Source of the DNA: Thermodesulfovibrionia bacterium
GTDB taxonomy: Bacteria; Nitrospirota; Thermodesulfovibrionia; UBA6902; BMS3Bbin08
NCBI GenBank assembly: GCA_030694425.1
Contig: JAUXYI010000063.1
Location: 121,150 to 154,504, forward strand
Direction of reading: 5' to 3'
Length of the DNA stretch: 33,355 nt
Shown here piece by piece: positions 3,417 through 23,596 of the stretch (position 1 is the stretch's first letter; the number at the start of each line of letters is the position of its first letter). Below the pieces are notes generated by a model that worked only from the letters and a program-made list of their open reading frames with translations, had not been told where the DNA came from and did no database searches. Position numbers and translations under genes: made by a program.

Positions 3417-3578
3417 ATTCAAGGATTCGAGTGGTCAAGTGAAACTCAAAAATTAAAAATTAAAAATCAAAATTGTGGAAGAAAAATTAATTTGAATTTT
3501 AATAAATAATTCCTTAATTTTACATTTTGATTTTTGCATTTTGCATTTACCTGAACCCTTAGCCACTTGAATCCTTTA
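3417..3578. repeat. Nested inverted repeat between the two phosphofructokinases
   Basis: Outer arms AAGGATTCGAGTGG and CCACTTGAATCCTT are inverted copies with one or two mismatches. Inside is an AT-rich core made of AAAAATTAAAAATCAAAATT and, inverted, TTTTGATTTTTGCATTTTGC. The stretch AAAATTGTGGAAGA in the core recurs inverted at 23597-23676. The element fills the gap between convergent genes and could act as a bidirectional transcription end. Confidence 0.7.
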
Positions 3579-5062: not shown

Positions 5063-5650
5063 TAGAGTTCCTTTTGTTGACGGCACTCCCTTTGCTTTAG
5101 GATGAATCTCAACAGCAGTTCTTAATGCCCTGCCGAATCCTTTAAAAATAGCCTCAAAAATGTGATGAGGGTCGCTGCCGTAAAGGAGGATTATGTGCAG
5201 ATTCATTCCTGCATGATTTGTCAGCGCCCTGAAAAAATCCTCAAAAATAGACATCCCAACGCCTCTTAACGCACTTTCTTTGGGCGGTTTGACTTTATAT
5301 ACTAAGTACGGTCTTCCGCTCAAGTCTATAGCAATCTGAGCAAGGCTTTCATCCATTGGAGTTAGTGATTCGCCATAACGCCTTATCATCAATTTCTGAC
5401 CAAGGGCTTTTTTTATTGCCTCGCCAAGAACAATGCCGACGTCTTCTATAAGGTGATGATAATCAACCTCAATATCTCCCTTTGCTTCTACATTAATGTC
5501 TATATGACCATGCTTTGCCATAAGGCTGAGCATATGGTCAACAAAGGGGATTGAGGTATTTATCTTATAATCTCCTTTTCCATCAATATTAATGCTGACT
5601 TTGATATCGGTTTCTTTTGTCTTTCTTTCTACCATTACTTTTCTTGGCAT
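5060..5650 (-). CDS. hisB: Imidazoleglycerol-phosphate dehydratase HisB
   Basis: The 196-residue protein is the stand-alone form without the phosphatase domain. It dehydrates imidazole glycerol phosphate to imidazole acetol phosphate, the step just before HisC. The metal and substrate motifs of the family are in order: FVDHMLSLMAKHG, VDYHHLIEDVGI, DLSGRPYLVY and SDPHHIFEAIFKGFGRALR. The length is normal for the family. The ATG has a strong AGGAGG seven bases upstream. hisC lies upstream on the same strand, 121 bases away with a palindromic repeat in between. The other his genes are not in the window. Confidence 0.96.
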   Translation of the reverse strand: MPRKVMVERKTKETDIKVSINIDGKGDYKINTSIPFVDHMLSLMAKHGHIDINVEAKGDIEVDYHHLIEDVGIVLGEAIKKALGQKLMIRRYGESLTPMDESLAQIAIDLSGRPYLVYKVKPPKESALRGVGMSIFEDFFRALTNHAGMNLHIILLYGSDPHHIFEAIFKGFGRALRTAVEIHPKAKGVPSTKGTL

Positions 5651-20916: not shown

Positions 20917-21120
20917 ATGAGAGCTTATGAATACTTGGCAGAGATATTGCCAGATGGGCATCTGTCTATTCCAGAAGACTTAAAGGGTAAACTATCCGGA
21001 GAGTTAAAAATCAGGGTTATGCTTCTGCTCGAAGATGAGAATGCCCAGTGGAGTAATTTTACAGTAGCCGAATTTATGAAAGGCTACTCCGAAAAGGACG
21101 CTATGTATGACAGCCTATAA
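20917..21120 (+). CDS. Putative antitoxin of the PemK/MazF-type pair
   Basis: The 67-residue protein (MRAYEYLAEILPDGHLSIPE...) has a short N-terminal part like AbrB/DUF2281-type swapped-hairpin antitoxins: the EILPDGHLSIPEDLKGKL stretch resembles their DNA-binding strand pattern. An acidic C-terminus (LLLEDENAQWSNF) could bind the toxin. AAAGGAGG lies seven bases before the ATG. It overlaps the toxin gene by 14 bases, with antitoxin first. It sits just downstream of a direct repeat, whose second copy follows the toxin. The pairing is inferred from position, size and partner, not from a recognised family. Confidence 0.72.
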   Translation: MRAYEYLAEILPDGHLSIPEDLKGKLSGELKIRVMLLLEDENAQWSNFTVAEFMKGYSEKDAMYDSL

Positions 21121-21433
21121 CTTCGGCGATATTGTGCTTGTGGGCTTCCCTCATAGTGATTTACAGGGCGTTTCCAAAAGGCCTGCTCTTGTTTTATATG
21201 ATTCAGGAGATCAGGATGTCCTTGTCGCAAGAATAACCACACAAGAATATAACACAGAAGCTGATTATAAAATCATTGACTGGAGAAGAAGCGGTCTTCT
21301 TGCCGAATCATTTATGAGACTCGGCAAACAGGCAACGATTGAAAAGAAATATATCATTAAAAAGTTGGGAGCATTGGCTGAACCGGAACCAGAGACCGTG
21401 AAATCTATTTTGAGAAGGATATTCAAATTATAG
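21107..21433 (+). CDS. PemK/MazF-family toxin
   Basis: The 108-residue protein has the usual beginning of the family: YNFGDIVLVGFPHSDLQGVS, then KRPALVLYDSGDQDVLVARI. Members are endoribonucleases with an SH3-like barrel, and the GDIVLVxFP and KRPALVL segments are its main signature. The C-terminus (TIEKKYIIKKLGAL...SILRRIFKL) is like other chromosomal PemK homologues. The gene overlaps its antitoxin by 14 bases. It is followed by a small gene relic and a direct repeat. Location in a cluster of TA modules and the flanking duplication suggest it was acquired. Confidence 0.87.
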   Translation: MTAYNFGDIVLVGFPHSDLQGVSKRPALVLYDSGDQDVLVARITTQEYNTEADYKIIDWRRSGLLAESFMRLGKQATIEKKYIIKKLGALAEPEPETVKSILRRIFKL

Positions 21434-21459
21434 GTGAAAAGCCTTAAATCGAGTCAATC

Positions 21460-21513
21460 ATGTCTCTTGCTGTTGACAAGCCAATCCTGAAATCACGGCT
21501 CAGATATTGGTAA
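21460..21513 (+). pseudogene. Relic of a lost gene start, copy 1
   Basis: The frame reads MSLAVDKPILKSRLRYW then stop. Its first nine codons match MSLAVDEPI of the second relic at 22319. Five of the base differences are at third codon positions and only one at a first position, the pattern of a once-selected coding sequence. The start and 'RYW' resemble the N-terminus of large DEAD/DEAH or type III restriction-type helicases (…PIxNSPFEEPxRYW); that link is from memory and tentative. Confidence 0.5.
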
Positions 21514-21519
21514 GATATA
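21487..21519 (+). repeat. Direct repeat copy 2, without the 20-base insert
   Basis: CTGAAATCACGGCTCAGATA continues directly into TTGGTAAGATATA. It overlaps the end of the gene relic at 21460. It is 85-90% identical to copy 1 (20838) once the insert is removed, and so shows the empty site. Confidence 0.7.
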
Positions 21520-21596
21520 GAGAAGGCAATTAAAGTTCGCACCTATGAGTCTAAGAGGTGTGGAAAAGATTGTGCATTCGGAAAGGAGTGTTCTAA

Positions 21597-21923
21597 ATGA
21601 CCGAAGAAAGACTTGATTTATTTTTAAAAGAGGCTGTGAAGAGAATCACGGAAAAGTTTATGCCGGTAAGAATTATCCTTTTCGGCTCTCATGCATATGG
21701 TCAGCCTACGCCGGACAGCGACATTGATCTCCTGATTGTCATGGAAACTGATATTGTTCCTCACAAAAGATCAGTGCCGATAAGAAAACTGTTAAAGGAT
21801 CTCGGCATCCCCAAAGATATCATCGTTAAGACTCCCGGTGAATTCGAGAGATTTAAGGATATCGTAGGTACGGTCATTTATCCTGCTGCTCATAAGGGAA
21901 GGGTTATTTATGAAAGGCGATAA
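21597..21923 (+). CDS. mntA: Minimal nucleotidyltransferase (MNT-type antitoxin)
   Basis: The 108-residue protein has the nucleotidyltransferase core: IILFGSHAYGQPTPDSDIDL, with GS, DxD (Asp-Ile-Asp) and the following LLIVME. MNT proteins of this size act as antitoxins; in the characterised HepT-MntA pairs they AMPylate the partner HEPN toxin at a tyrosine. The third acidic residue could be Asp103-equivalent in the KDIIVKTPGEFE segment, but I cannot be certain. AAAGGAGT lies nine bases before the ATG. The stop overlaps the start of the HEPN gene by 14 bases. It lies between the two relics of a lost gene. Confidence 0.9.
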   Translation: MTEERLDLFLKEAVKRITEKFMPVRIILFGSHAYGQPTPDSDIDLLIVMETDIVPHKRSVPIRKLLKDLGIPKDIIVKTPGEFERFKDIVGTVIYPAAHKGRVIYERR

Positions 21924-22314
21924 GTTTGATGTAGTAAGGGCATGGTTTAAAAAGGCGGAAAATGACCTTATCACCGCTGAGCATACACTAACACTTGAAC
22001 ATCCGCCTTATGACACGATTTGTTTTCATGCAGAACAATGTGCTGAAAAATATCTTAAAGGTTTTCTCACATTTCTTGAAATAGAGTTCCCCAAAACGCA
22101 TTCAATTGAAGACCTTGTTTCATTATGCAAGAAGTCAGCGCCGTCAATCGAATCTGAACTGGGCGACGTAGAAATCCTGTCAAGCTATGGCGTTGAGGTA
22201 AGGTATCCTGATGAGCTGTATTATGATATACCTGCAGAGGATGCCCATGAAGCCATTTCTTTAGCCAAGAAGGTAAGGGAGTTTGTCCTCGGTCAGCTTG
22301 GCGGTAAAATTTAA
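21910..22314 (+). CDS. hepT: HEPN-domain protein (HepT-like toxin partner)
   Basis: The 134-residue all-helical protein has the HEPN family signature ICFHAEQCAEKYLKGFL (about 36-52), and AWFKKAENDLITAEH at the start. The C-terminal VEVRYPDELYYDIPAEDAHEA with YPDE-type tyrosines is also typical and could be the AMPylation site. HEPN proteins are often RNases with an Rx4-6H motif; here the expected arginine-histidine pair is not clear to me, so nuclease activity is uncertain. GGAAGG precedes the ATG. It is translated together with the MNT gene. Confidence 0.9.
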   Translation: MKGDKFDVVRAWFKKAENDLITAEHTLTLEHPPYDTICFHAEQCAEKYLKGFLTFLEIEFPKTHSIEDLVSLCKKSAPSIESELGDVEILSSYGVEVRYPDELYYDIPAEDAHEAISLAKKVREFVLGQLGGKI

Positions 22315-22426: not shown

Positions 22427-23596
22427 ATGATTAATGAAGAAGCGATAAAATCCTACCTCAGGGAAAAATTCAAGGATGTTATTCATGTGGATATCACCAA
22501 GCTTGGCGCCGGTGTACAGGGGGCTGGTTTTCTTATTGAAATGAAAACCAAAGAAGGCATTAAATCATATGTGGTAAAAGGTCTATTCCCAGAAGGCTTA
22601 GGGCATGACTATCCATCTGACAGGGCTGGCGTATTCCTTCTTGACCTTGATGAATTCAAGAATCTGCCAAAGCATGTAGAGGCTGTTGATGTGCTTGCGG
22701 AGATGGGTGACGGCTCAATAAAATCAATCGGCGGCGGTAAGGAGTATTATCTCCTGATGGAGAGGGCAGAAGGCAGGCATTATTTTAATGACCTGTTAGA
22801 ATTCTCCCGAAAAAATAAACTGGAAATCTTAGACATTGAAAAAATAAAGACAATGACATCATACCTTGCAGGGATACATTCAGTTAAAAAGGATTCAAAG
22901 GCTTTATACTGGAGAAAAATAAGGGACACCATAGGGCATGGTGAATGCCTGATGGGAGTATTTGATACCTATCCGGATGGAACCCTTAATTATGAAGAAA
23001 TGGCAGAAATAGAGAAGAAATGCATAGACTGGAGGGCGAGACTGAAACCTAAATTTAAAAGGCTCTGCCAGATACATGGAGATTTTCATCCCGGGAATAT
23101 ATGGTTTAAAAACCAGAATACAGAATACAGAACACAGAACACAGATAACCCCCCCATCCCCCCTTTACTAAAGGGGGGTGAGGGGGGATTAATCACTCCG
23201 AATTCCGAATTCAGAACTCAAATAGACTTCATTCTTCTTGACAGAAGCAGAGGCCCGTGGGGAGATGCTGCTGATGACATAACTGCATTAACAATAAACT
23301 ATATCTTTTTCTCAATAAACCATTTCGGTAAGCTTGATGGAACATATCTTGAGGCAATAAAATTATTTTATGACGAGTATATTAAAAAGACCAGGGATTT
23401 TGAGATTGATGGGGTTGTTGCACCTTTTTATGCCTTCAGGGGTATAGTAGTTGCAAATCCTGTTTTCTATCCTGACATTACACCAGAAAACAGACGCAAG
23501 ATCTTTAATTTTGTGCATGGTGTTTTAAACGATAAATCTTTCAATATTGAAAAGGTGAATGAATATATTAAAAGAATGCAAACATTTAAATGCTAA
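22427..23596 (+). CDS. Aminoglycoside-phosphotransferase-fold kinase with in-frame repeat
   Basis: This 389-residue protein has the catalytic loop of the APH/choline-kinase fold, QIHGDFHPGNIWF (Asp219), and the metal-binding Asp in FILLDRSRGPWGD (Asp272). The N-terminal lobe has KLGAGVQGAGFLIEM and SYVVKGLFP with a likely ATP lysine. Between the two motifs about 37 residues (229-265: NQNTEYRTQNTDNPPIPPLL, KGGEGG..., SEFRTQ) are read from an inserted palindromic repeat. Without them the spacing of HGDFHPGN to LLDRSRG would be the normal one. The frame is kept and the rest is intact, so the protein may fold with a surface loop. Substrate unknown. It is next to an IMPase-family gene. Confidence 0.85.
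   Translation: MINEEAIKSYLREKFKDVIHVDITKLGAGVQGAGFLIEMKTKEGIKSYVVKGLFPEGLGHDYPSDRAGVFLLDLDEFKNLPKHVEAVDVLAEMGDGSIKSIGGGKEYYLLMERAEGRHYFNDLLEFSRKNKLEILDIEKIKTMTSYLAGIHSVKKDSKALYWRKIRDTIGHGECLMGVFDTYPDGTLNYEEMAEIEKKCIDWRARLKPKFKRLCQIHGDFHPGNIWFKNQNTEYRTQNTDNPPIPPLLKGGEGGLITPNSEFRTQIDFILLDRSRGPWGDAADDITALTINYIFFSINHFGKLDGTYLEAIKLFYDEYIKKTRDFEIDGVVAPFYAFRGIVVANPVFYPDITPENRRKIFNFVHGVLNDKSFNIEKVNEYIKRMQTFKC
23111..23221. repeat. Nested palindrome inside a coding sequence
   Basis: Outer units: CAGAATACAGAATACAGAAC at the left, CCGAATTCCGAATTCAGAAC at the right. Inner unit: CCCCCCATCCCCCCTTTACT and AAAGGGGGGTGAGGGGGG, a different family. Total about 111 bases, 37 codons, no stop in the kinase frame. 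Confidence 0.75.

Follow-up and report, generated by a model that had tools for sequence, protein, structure and literature searches.

The window analyzed here, a stretch of 33,355 nucleotides on a contig (C48) of a 2.42-Mb Thermodesulfovibrionia genome (GCA_030694425.1; here the home genome, G000), carries a small-molecule kinase gene in which residues 229 to 265, situated between two conserved motifs, are encoded by repeats. The features of this gene are as follows, in window positions (ORF, open reading frame; TRF, Tandem Repeats Finder; pLDDT, predicted local distance difference test).

22427 to 23596, forward strand: host gene, an APH-fold small-molecule kinase of 389 amino acids (ORF; PF01636 APH, E value of 2e-5; AlphaFold2 model)
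23075 to 23107, forward strand: catalytic HGDFHPGNIWF motif, the upstream anchor of the insert (conservation among 44 homologues)
23111 to 23221, forward strand: repeat-derived in-frame insert, residues 229 to 265 (absent or replaced in homologues; residues 234 to 262 mostly with pLDDT below 50)
23114 to 23145, forward strand: 5' heptad array CAGAATA/CAGAACA, 4.6 copies (TRF)
23146 to 23190, forward strand: inner palindromic element, read as NPPIPPLLKGGEGG (inverted repeat; fold z of -4.7; member of a genome-wide family)
23197 to 23216, forward strand: 3' heptad array TCCGAAT, 2.9 copies (TRF)
23225 to 23254, forward strand: DFILLDRSRG motif, the downstream anchor of the insert (LDRSRG conserved in 44 homologues)

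A preliminary description of this locus had already placed a repeat-encoded segment at exactly these residues, and ORF, inverted-repeat and TRF evidence agreed with it on both coordinates and frame. The same description had read the segment as a palindrome on two levels, of which only the inner one held. Its arms (23149 to 23167 and 23169 to 23187) were recovered by an inverted-repeat search, the DNA folded with a z score of -4.7, with none of 200 shuffled sequences being equally stable, and its core was absent from shuffled windows. The outer arms, on the other hand, are direct repeats that do not pair on folding, neither here nor in most other inserts containing heptads, which ruled them out as a palindrome; moreover, their unit is not the 10-mer CAGAATACAG proposed initially but a tandem repeat of 7 bp, in the two versions listed above. 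No known RNA family was matched.

Among 44 kinase homologues, HGDFHPGN and F227 are invariant and W226 is present in at least 90%. The distance between GNIWF and DFILLDRSRG is 39 residues here, compared to 4 in the ancestral state, so that the insert adds 35. In an AlphaFold2 model built from the 44-sequence alignment (predicted template modeling score of 0.84), strands at residues 225 to 227 and 268 to 270 border the region in which pLDDT values mostly drop below 50; as modeled, the insert thus extends a beta-hairpin turn as a disordered segment. The best Foldseek matches of this model were methylthioribose kinase and 25-hydroxysteroid kinase, with choline and aminoglycoside kinases also among the nearest solved folds.

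The same loop was then compared among relatives, using homologues from 47 of 61 searched genomes (E value of ≤0.001, with some of these matches consisting of repeat peptides only) and 59 further loci, two collections that overlap. The supposition that the two motifs lie close together in known relatives proved correct: in its plain state, the loop is a turn some 4 residues long (KDNG or QNNK), and approximately 30 of 66 homologues have a turn of 4 to 7 residues. The other 36 or so carry an insert, made up of palindromes, heptad arrays, both, or other sequence, and in many species the loop holds 10 to 39 residues, mostly derived from recognizable repeats. Peptides derived from heptads include SQKSEVRSQ, QNTEHRTQ and VNRSIGQSVNR...IHPFTHSPIHP, among others, while NPPSPPFSKGGMGGF is derived from a palindrome. 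No conserved sequence of equal length was found opposite residues 229 to 265; loops that are not short contain differing, mostly repeat-derived inserts. On a tree of 66 kinase sequences, based on the flanks only, insert presence or absence requires 14 changes, with 13 of them forced by starred branches; repeats have therefore been gained or lost repeatedly, at least 13 times, at this loop across related species. The labels assigned to insert types are coarse (the palindromes at L078 and L087 were put in the heptad class, which also holds inserts of unclear origin), which does not affect presence and absence. As had been claimed for the window, the insert preserves the reading frame, and so do those at all 76 measurable kinase loci, a number that includes some genomes twice, once per collection. 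In two relatives, the contig stops exactly at the insertion site (G001/L115, end at 5237; G041/L116, end at 3557), as if the repeat had broken the assembly.

Copies elsewhere in the genome, which the preliminary description had suggested looking for, are plentiful. The palindrome is a G+C-rich unit of 42 to 45 bp with a consensus like AATCCCCCCTCACCCCCCTTTNNNAAAGGGGGGATGGGGGGATT, and a pattern search located its core at approximately 60 sites of the home genome, versus 4 for a reversed control pattern (the 126 forward matches are inflated by double counting of many sites). In a copy census covering about 684 kb of this genome, partly chosen by matches, 35 of 37 exact-core copies fell within ORFs, one of which (L127:8966; PFKKG, frame C) probably matches the short core by chance. 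A profile search (E value of ≤1e-6) put 46 of 51 copies in ORFs, with three of the remaining five near ORF starts, and in segments of five contigs that had not been centered on copies, although two of these contigs had been selected for holding copies, all 22 copies were in ORFs at a coding fraction of 0.84. ORF calls were mechanical, making these coding shares approximate. The copies are read in frame A (16), B (18) or C (1). Frames A and B, normally open (PPFxKGG and PPLxKGG), are used about equally, whereas the third usually contains stops. A single-frame reading of the palindrome was therefore dropped, as was a strict element length of 3n, since units of both 42 and 43 nucleotides were found in ORFs.

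The host genes are conserved and unrelated to one another: they encode, among others, ferrochelatase (two copies), BamA, KdsB, a WaaA-type 3-deoxy-D-manno-octulosonate transferase, YjeF, SurA, subunit B of a V-type ATPase, a MiaB-like methylthiotransferase, electron transfer flavoprotein subunit alpha, uracil-DNA glycosylase and the cobalamin proteins CobT, CobQ, CobD and CbiC. Alignment to solved structures placed the element opposite a gap in KdsB (1gq9), CobT (6b5f) and the V-type ATPase B subunit (3a5c). Several palindromes contain a third nested level, in frame: their loop holds CTACGAGCCATGGC or a close variant, with a GAGCCATGGCTC-like palindrome (L132:4432-4493, L147:1695-1766, L162:3690-3759 and L134:16664-16735). 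Extended flanks (AAAGGACAATRAAAAT and ATTATCAGGTG) are common to several copies, including L145:11737-11798 and L161:6586-6646, a similarity that hints at a longer parent element.

The second component, the heptad array, is widespread as well. In a 433-kb sample of the home genome (the window plus L127 to L146), periods of 7, 14 or 21 accounted for 43 of 57 exact short tandem repeats, with none in a Markov control; 28 arrays had period 7, with many different sequences, and ORFs contain a large number of the arrays. About 7 of 37 palindromes have heptads beside them when judged by eye and 5 by a strict criterion, against a background of 1% per flank. Nesting of palindromes and heptads is thus enriched without being the rule. 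Because each occurs without the other, both at the kinase site and genome-wide, they are separate elements, which settles part of the question, left undecided in the preliminary description, of which entered the other. The order itself is not proven, but the position of the palindrome between two heptad arms suggests that it arrived later. A cobalamin gene region on the same contig as the window (60 to 86 kb; L130 and L131) contains approximately 8 palindromes and 15 heptad arrays in 40 kb, a palindrome density with a Poisson P value of 1e-4 relative to other sampled stretches, for a region picked after inspection.

Across the order, the exact core was present in 31 of 47 genomes (control, 0), most abundantly in G040 (57), G009 (47) and G036 (40), and in 47 of 198 genomes of the phylum Nitrospirota, with strongly varying copy number; this phylum scan did not find it in the large family f27. 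The coding share varies too. While 37 of 41 copies in G009 lie in ORFs, the figure for three genomes of family f26 is 19 of 40 (Fisher P value of 1.3e-5 versus the home genome). A simple model of random insertion followed by in-frame survival predicted a coding share of 0.52 to 0.68, which is exceeded by the home genome and G009 but not by f26. Age lock-in is not favored as the sole cause of the excess, since most copies have near-perfect arms, a property for which the search pattern itself selects. In five host genes, the element site is common to different genera, and at two hosts the other genome has a heptad-type insert at that site. As at the kinase, L162/L207 and L132/L205 have differing element types at one site in different genera.

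We consider it likely, with a probability of roughly 0.8, that the palindromes are nonautonomous coding elements, similar to the Rickettsia palindromic elements (RPEs), and that they nest with heptad arrays in surface loops tolerant of insertion. The kinase insert would then be a composite of two dispersed kinds of repeat, the palindrome of 42 to 45 bp and the 7-bp tandem arrays. The palindrome, presumably a small mobile element, would be spread in trans by some enzyme, and a copy landing in a gene would survive only in a tolerant surface loop, with a net length that is a multiple of three and in one of the two stop-poor frames (PPFxKGG or PPLxKGG), to be translated as a disordered loop rich in proline and glycine. 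Once such a loop holds neutral DNA, it may serve as a landing pad at which heptad arrays and palindromes arrive, nest, change and get lost; the hairpin between HGDFHPGN and LLDRSRG appears to be one. Several observations weigh against this account. No mobilizer, excision product or target site duplication was identified; the coding excess in the home genome and G009 goes beyond what tolerance alone would give; heptads adjoin no more than about 7 of the 37 palindromes, making nesting a minority arrangement; and the argument for translation comes from frame conservation only.

Could the inserts instead have been made in place? Replication slippage could expand heptads, and template switching could correct a quasi-palindrome or copy it into the loop, so that no mobile element would be required. 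The dominance of 7-bp arrays of many sequences among the short tandem repeats of the home genome fits this well, as do the different heptad inserts of different species at the kinase site, and slippage may well be the source of the heptads alone. As an explanation of the whole insert, we regard it as improbable, since the palindrome is one sequence family, found in unrelated genes and in several families of the phylum, which is beyond the reach of slippage in place. A stronger, though still doubtful, candidate is that the palindrome is a repetitive extragenic palindromic (REP) element moved by REP-associated tyrosine transposases (RAYTs; Y1 HUH enzymes), its coding copies being ordinary in-frame insertions, a scenario partly compatible with our preferred account, for which it would supply the mobilizer. 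Like REP and REPIN palindromes, it is short, dispersed and hairpin forming, and Y1 transposases are present in most of these Nitrospirota genomes. Palindrome and Y1_Tnp counts were correlated over 47 genomes (Spearman coefficient of 0.61; P value of 5.5e-6), a relationship confounded by phylogeny and mobile load, and seven of eight genomes without Y1 also lacked the exact palindrome. However, whereas RAYT genes are flanked by REP copies, no palindrome was found within 1.5 kb on either side of 36 Y1 genes, and G003 lacks the exact palindrome despite its 17 Y1 genes; both facts count against our own account too. Furthermore, REPs are extragenic by definition, while the copies in the home genome (35/37) and G009 (37/41), though only 19/40 in f26, are mainly coding. 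No GTAG/CGTC tag, a REP trait, was seen by eye in copies with their flanks, an inspection that did not include a formal motif search. A Y1 enzyme as adjacent mobilizer was thus ruled out by the 36 loci scanned, despite the correlated counts, and the link to Y1 transposases is suggestive, without physical association.

Two further explanations concern the fate of the insert rather than its origin. Stable hairpins inside genes recall the bypass elements of Magnusiomyces mitochondria (PMC6649704), and the inserts might likewise be skipped by the ribosome or spliced out. Such inserts would be free to vary in frame, yet all 76 kinase loci are in frame and the copies avoid the stop-containing third frame, leaving bypass hardly credible. 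That selection maintains the insert for a function in the kinase, for instance in regulation or interaction, is very unlikely as well: frame maintenance and the sharing of some element sites between genera would agree with it, but sequence, length (4 to 39 amino acids) and type vary at the kinase site without conservation, relatives free of inserts are common, and the loop is predicted to be disordered.

Under the reading that we prefer, of nonautonomous RPE-like elements, the comparison with Rickettsia made in the preliminary description is apt in behavior. RPE-1 to RPE-10 are also dispersed, hairpin-forming palindromes that are found in frame in unrelated conserved genes and tolerated there (PMC3767692, PMC10969869), and RPE-4, -6 and -7 include cases of the same loci occupied by different elements in different species (PMC3767692). 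The unit differs, as that description had also noted: RPEs are about 100 to 150 bp long and form ten sequence families, compared here with our G+C-rich unit of 42 to 45 bp by length and composition only. RPEs belong to Rickettsiales, the present family to Nitrospirota, the only phylum searched, where it uses two frames, lies in ORFs in about 90% or more of cases in two genomes and is sometimes nested in heptad arrays. Heptameric repeats are known from Xanthomonas and cyanobacteria, mainly in noncoding DNA; the cyanobacterial short tandemly repeated repetitive (STRR)-type and GGGNATC repeats share with ours the 7-bp tandem unit and the genome-wide dispersal but are overrepresented in noncoding DNA, whereas many of ours lie in ORFs (PMC4692102). 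PARCEL repeats are also palindromic and coding but are described as a pattern within genes of various microbes, Mollicutes among them, as opposed to the dispersed single insertions in core enzymes seen here (PMC2996958). The coding palindromes of nematomorph mitochondria, inverted repeats inside translated genes, have arms that encode conserved protein parts, whereas our palindrome is extra sequence (PMC6649704).

Descriptions of protein-coding palindromes have treated them as peculiar to Rickettsia and thereby to reduced intracellular genomes; Ogata et al. (2002) reportedly call them unique in their title, and we found no report of such palindromes in Nitrospirota in the open-license literature. 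That environmental Nitrospirota carry a different family, in genes that are core and probably essential, suggests that proteins of free-living bacteria, too, can be lengthened by selfish DNA. Going further, we entertain as a tentative idea, which we would sooner doubt than accept, that the palindrome is mobile and coding-biased in some Nitrospirota lineages (through target choice or intergenic loss) and keeps adding new loops to core proteins, with surface loops acting as landing pads that can be used again and as a constant supply of variation in protein length among free-living bacteria. Since one loop exists there in dozens of natural versions, the kinase site allows direct measurement of how much a loop tolerates, how elements turn over and how new protein segments originate. 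For annotation, peptides such as NPPxPPLxKGGxGG or those resembling SQKSEVRSQ in proteins from metagenome-assembled genomes are to be taken as inserts rather than domains, and the repeats are a possible cause of broken assemblies. Finally, directly upstream of the kinase gene, positions 21107 to 22314 of the window hold a PemK/MazF-type toxin gene and an NTP_transf_2 (MNT)/HEPN pair.
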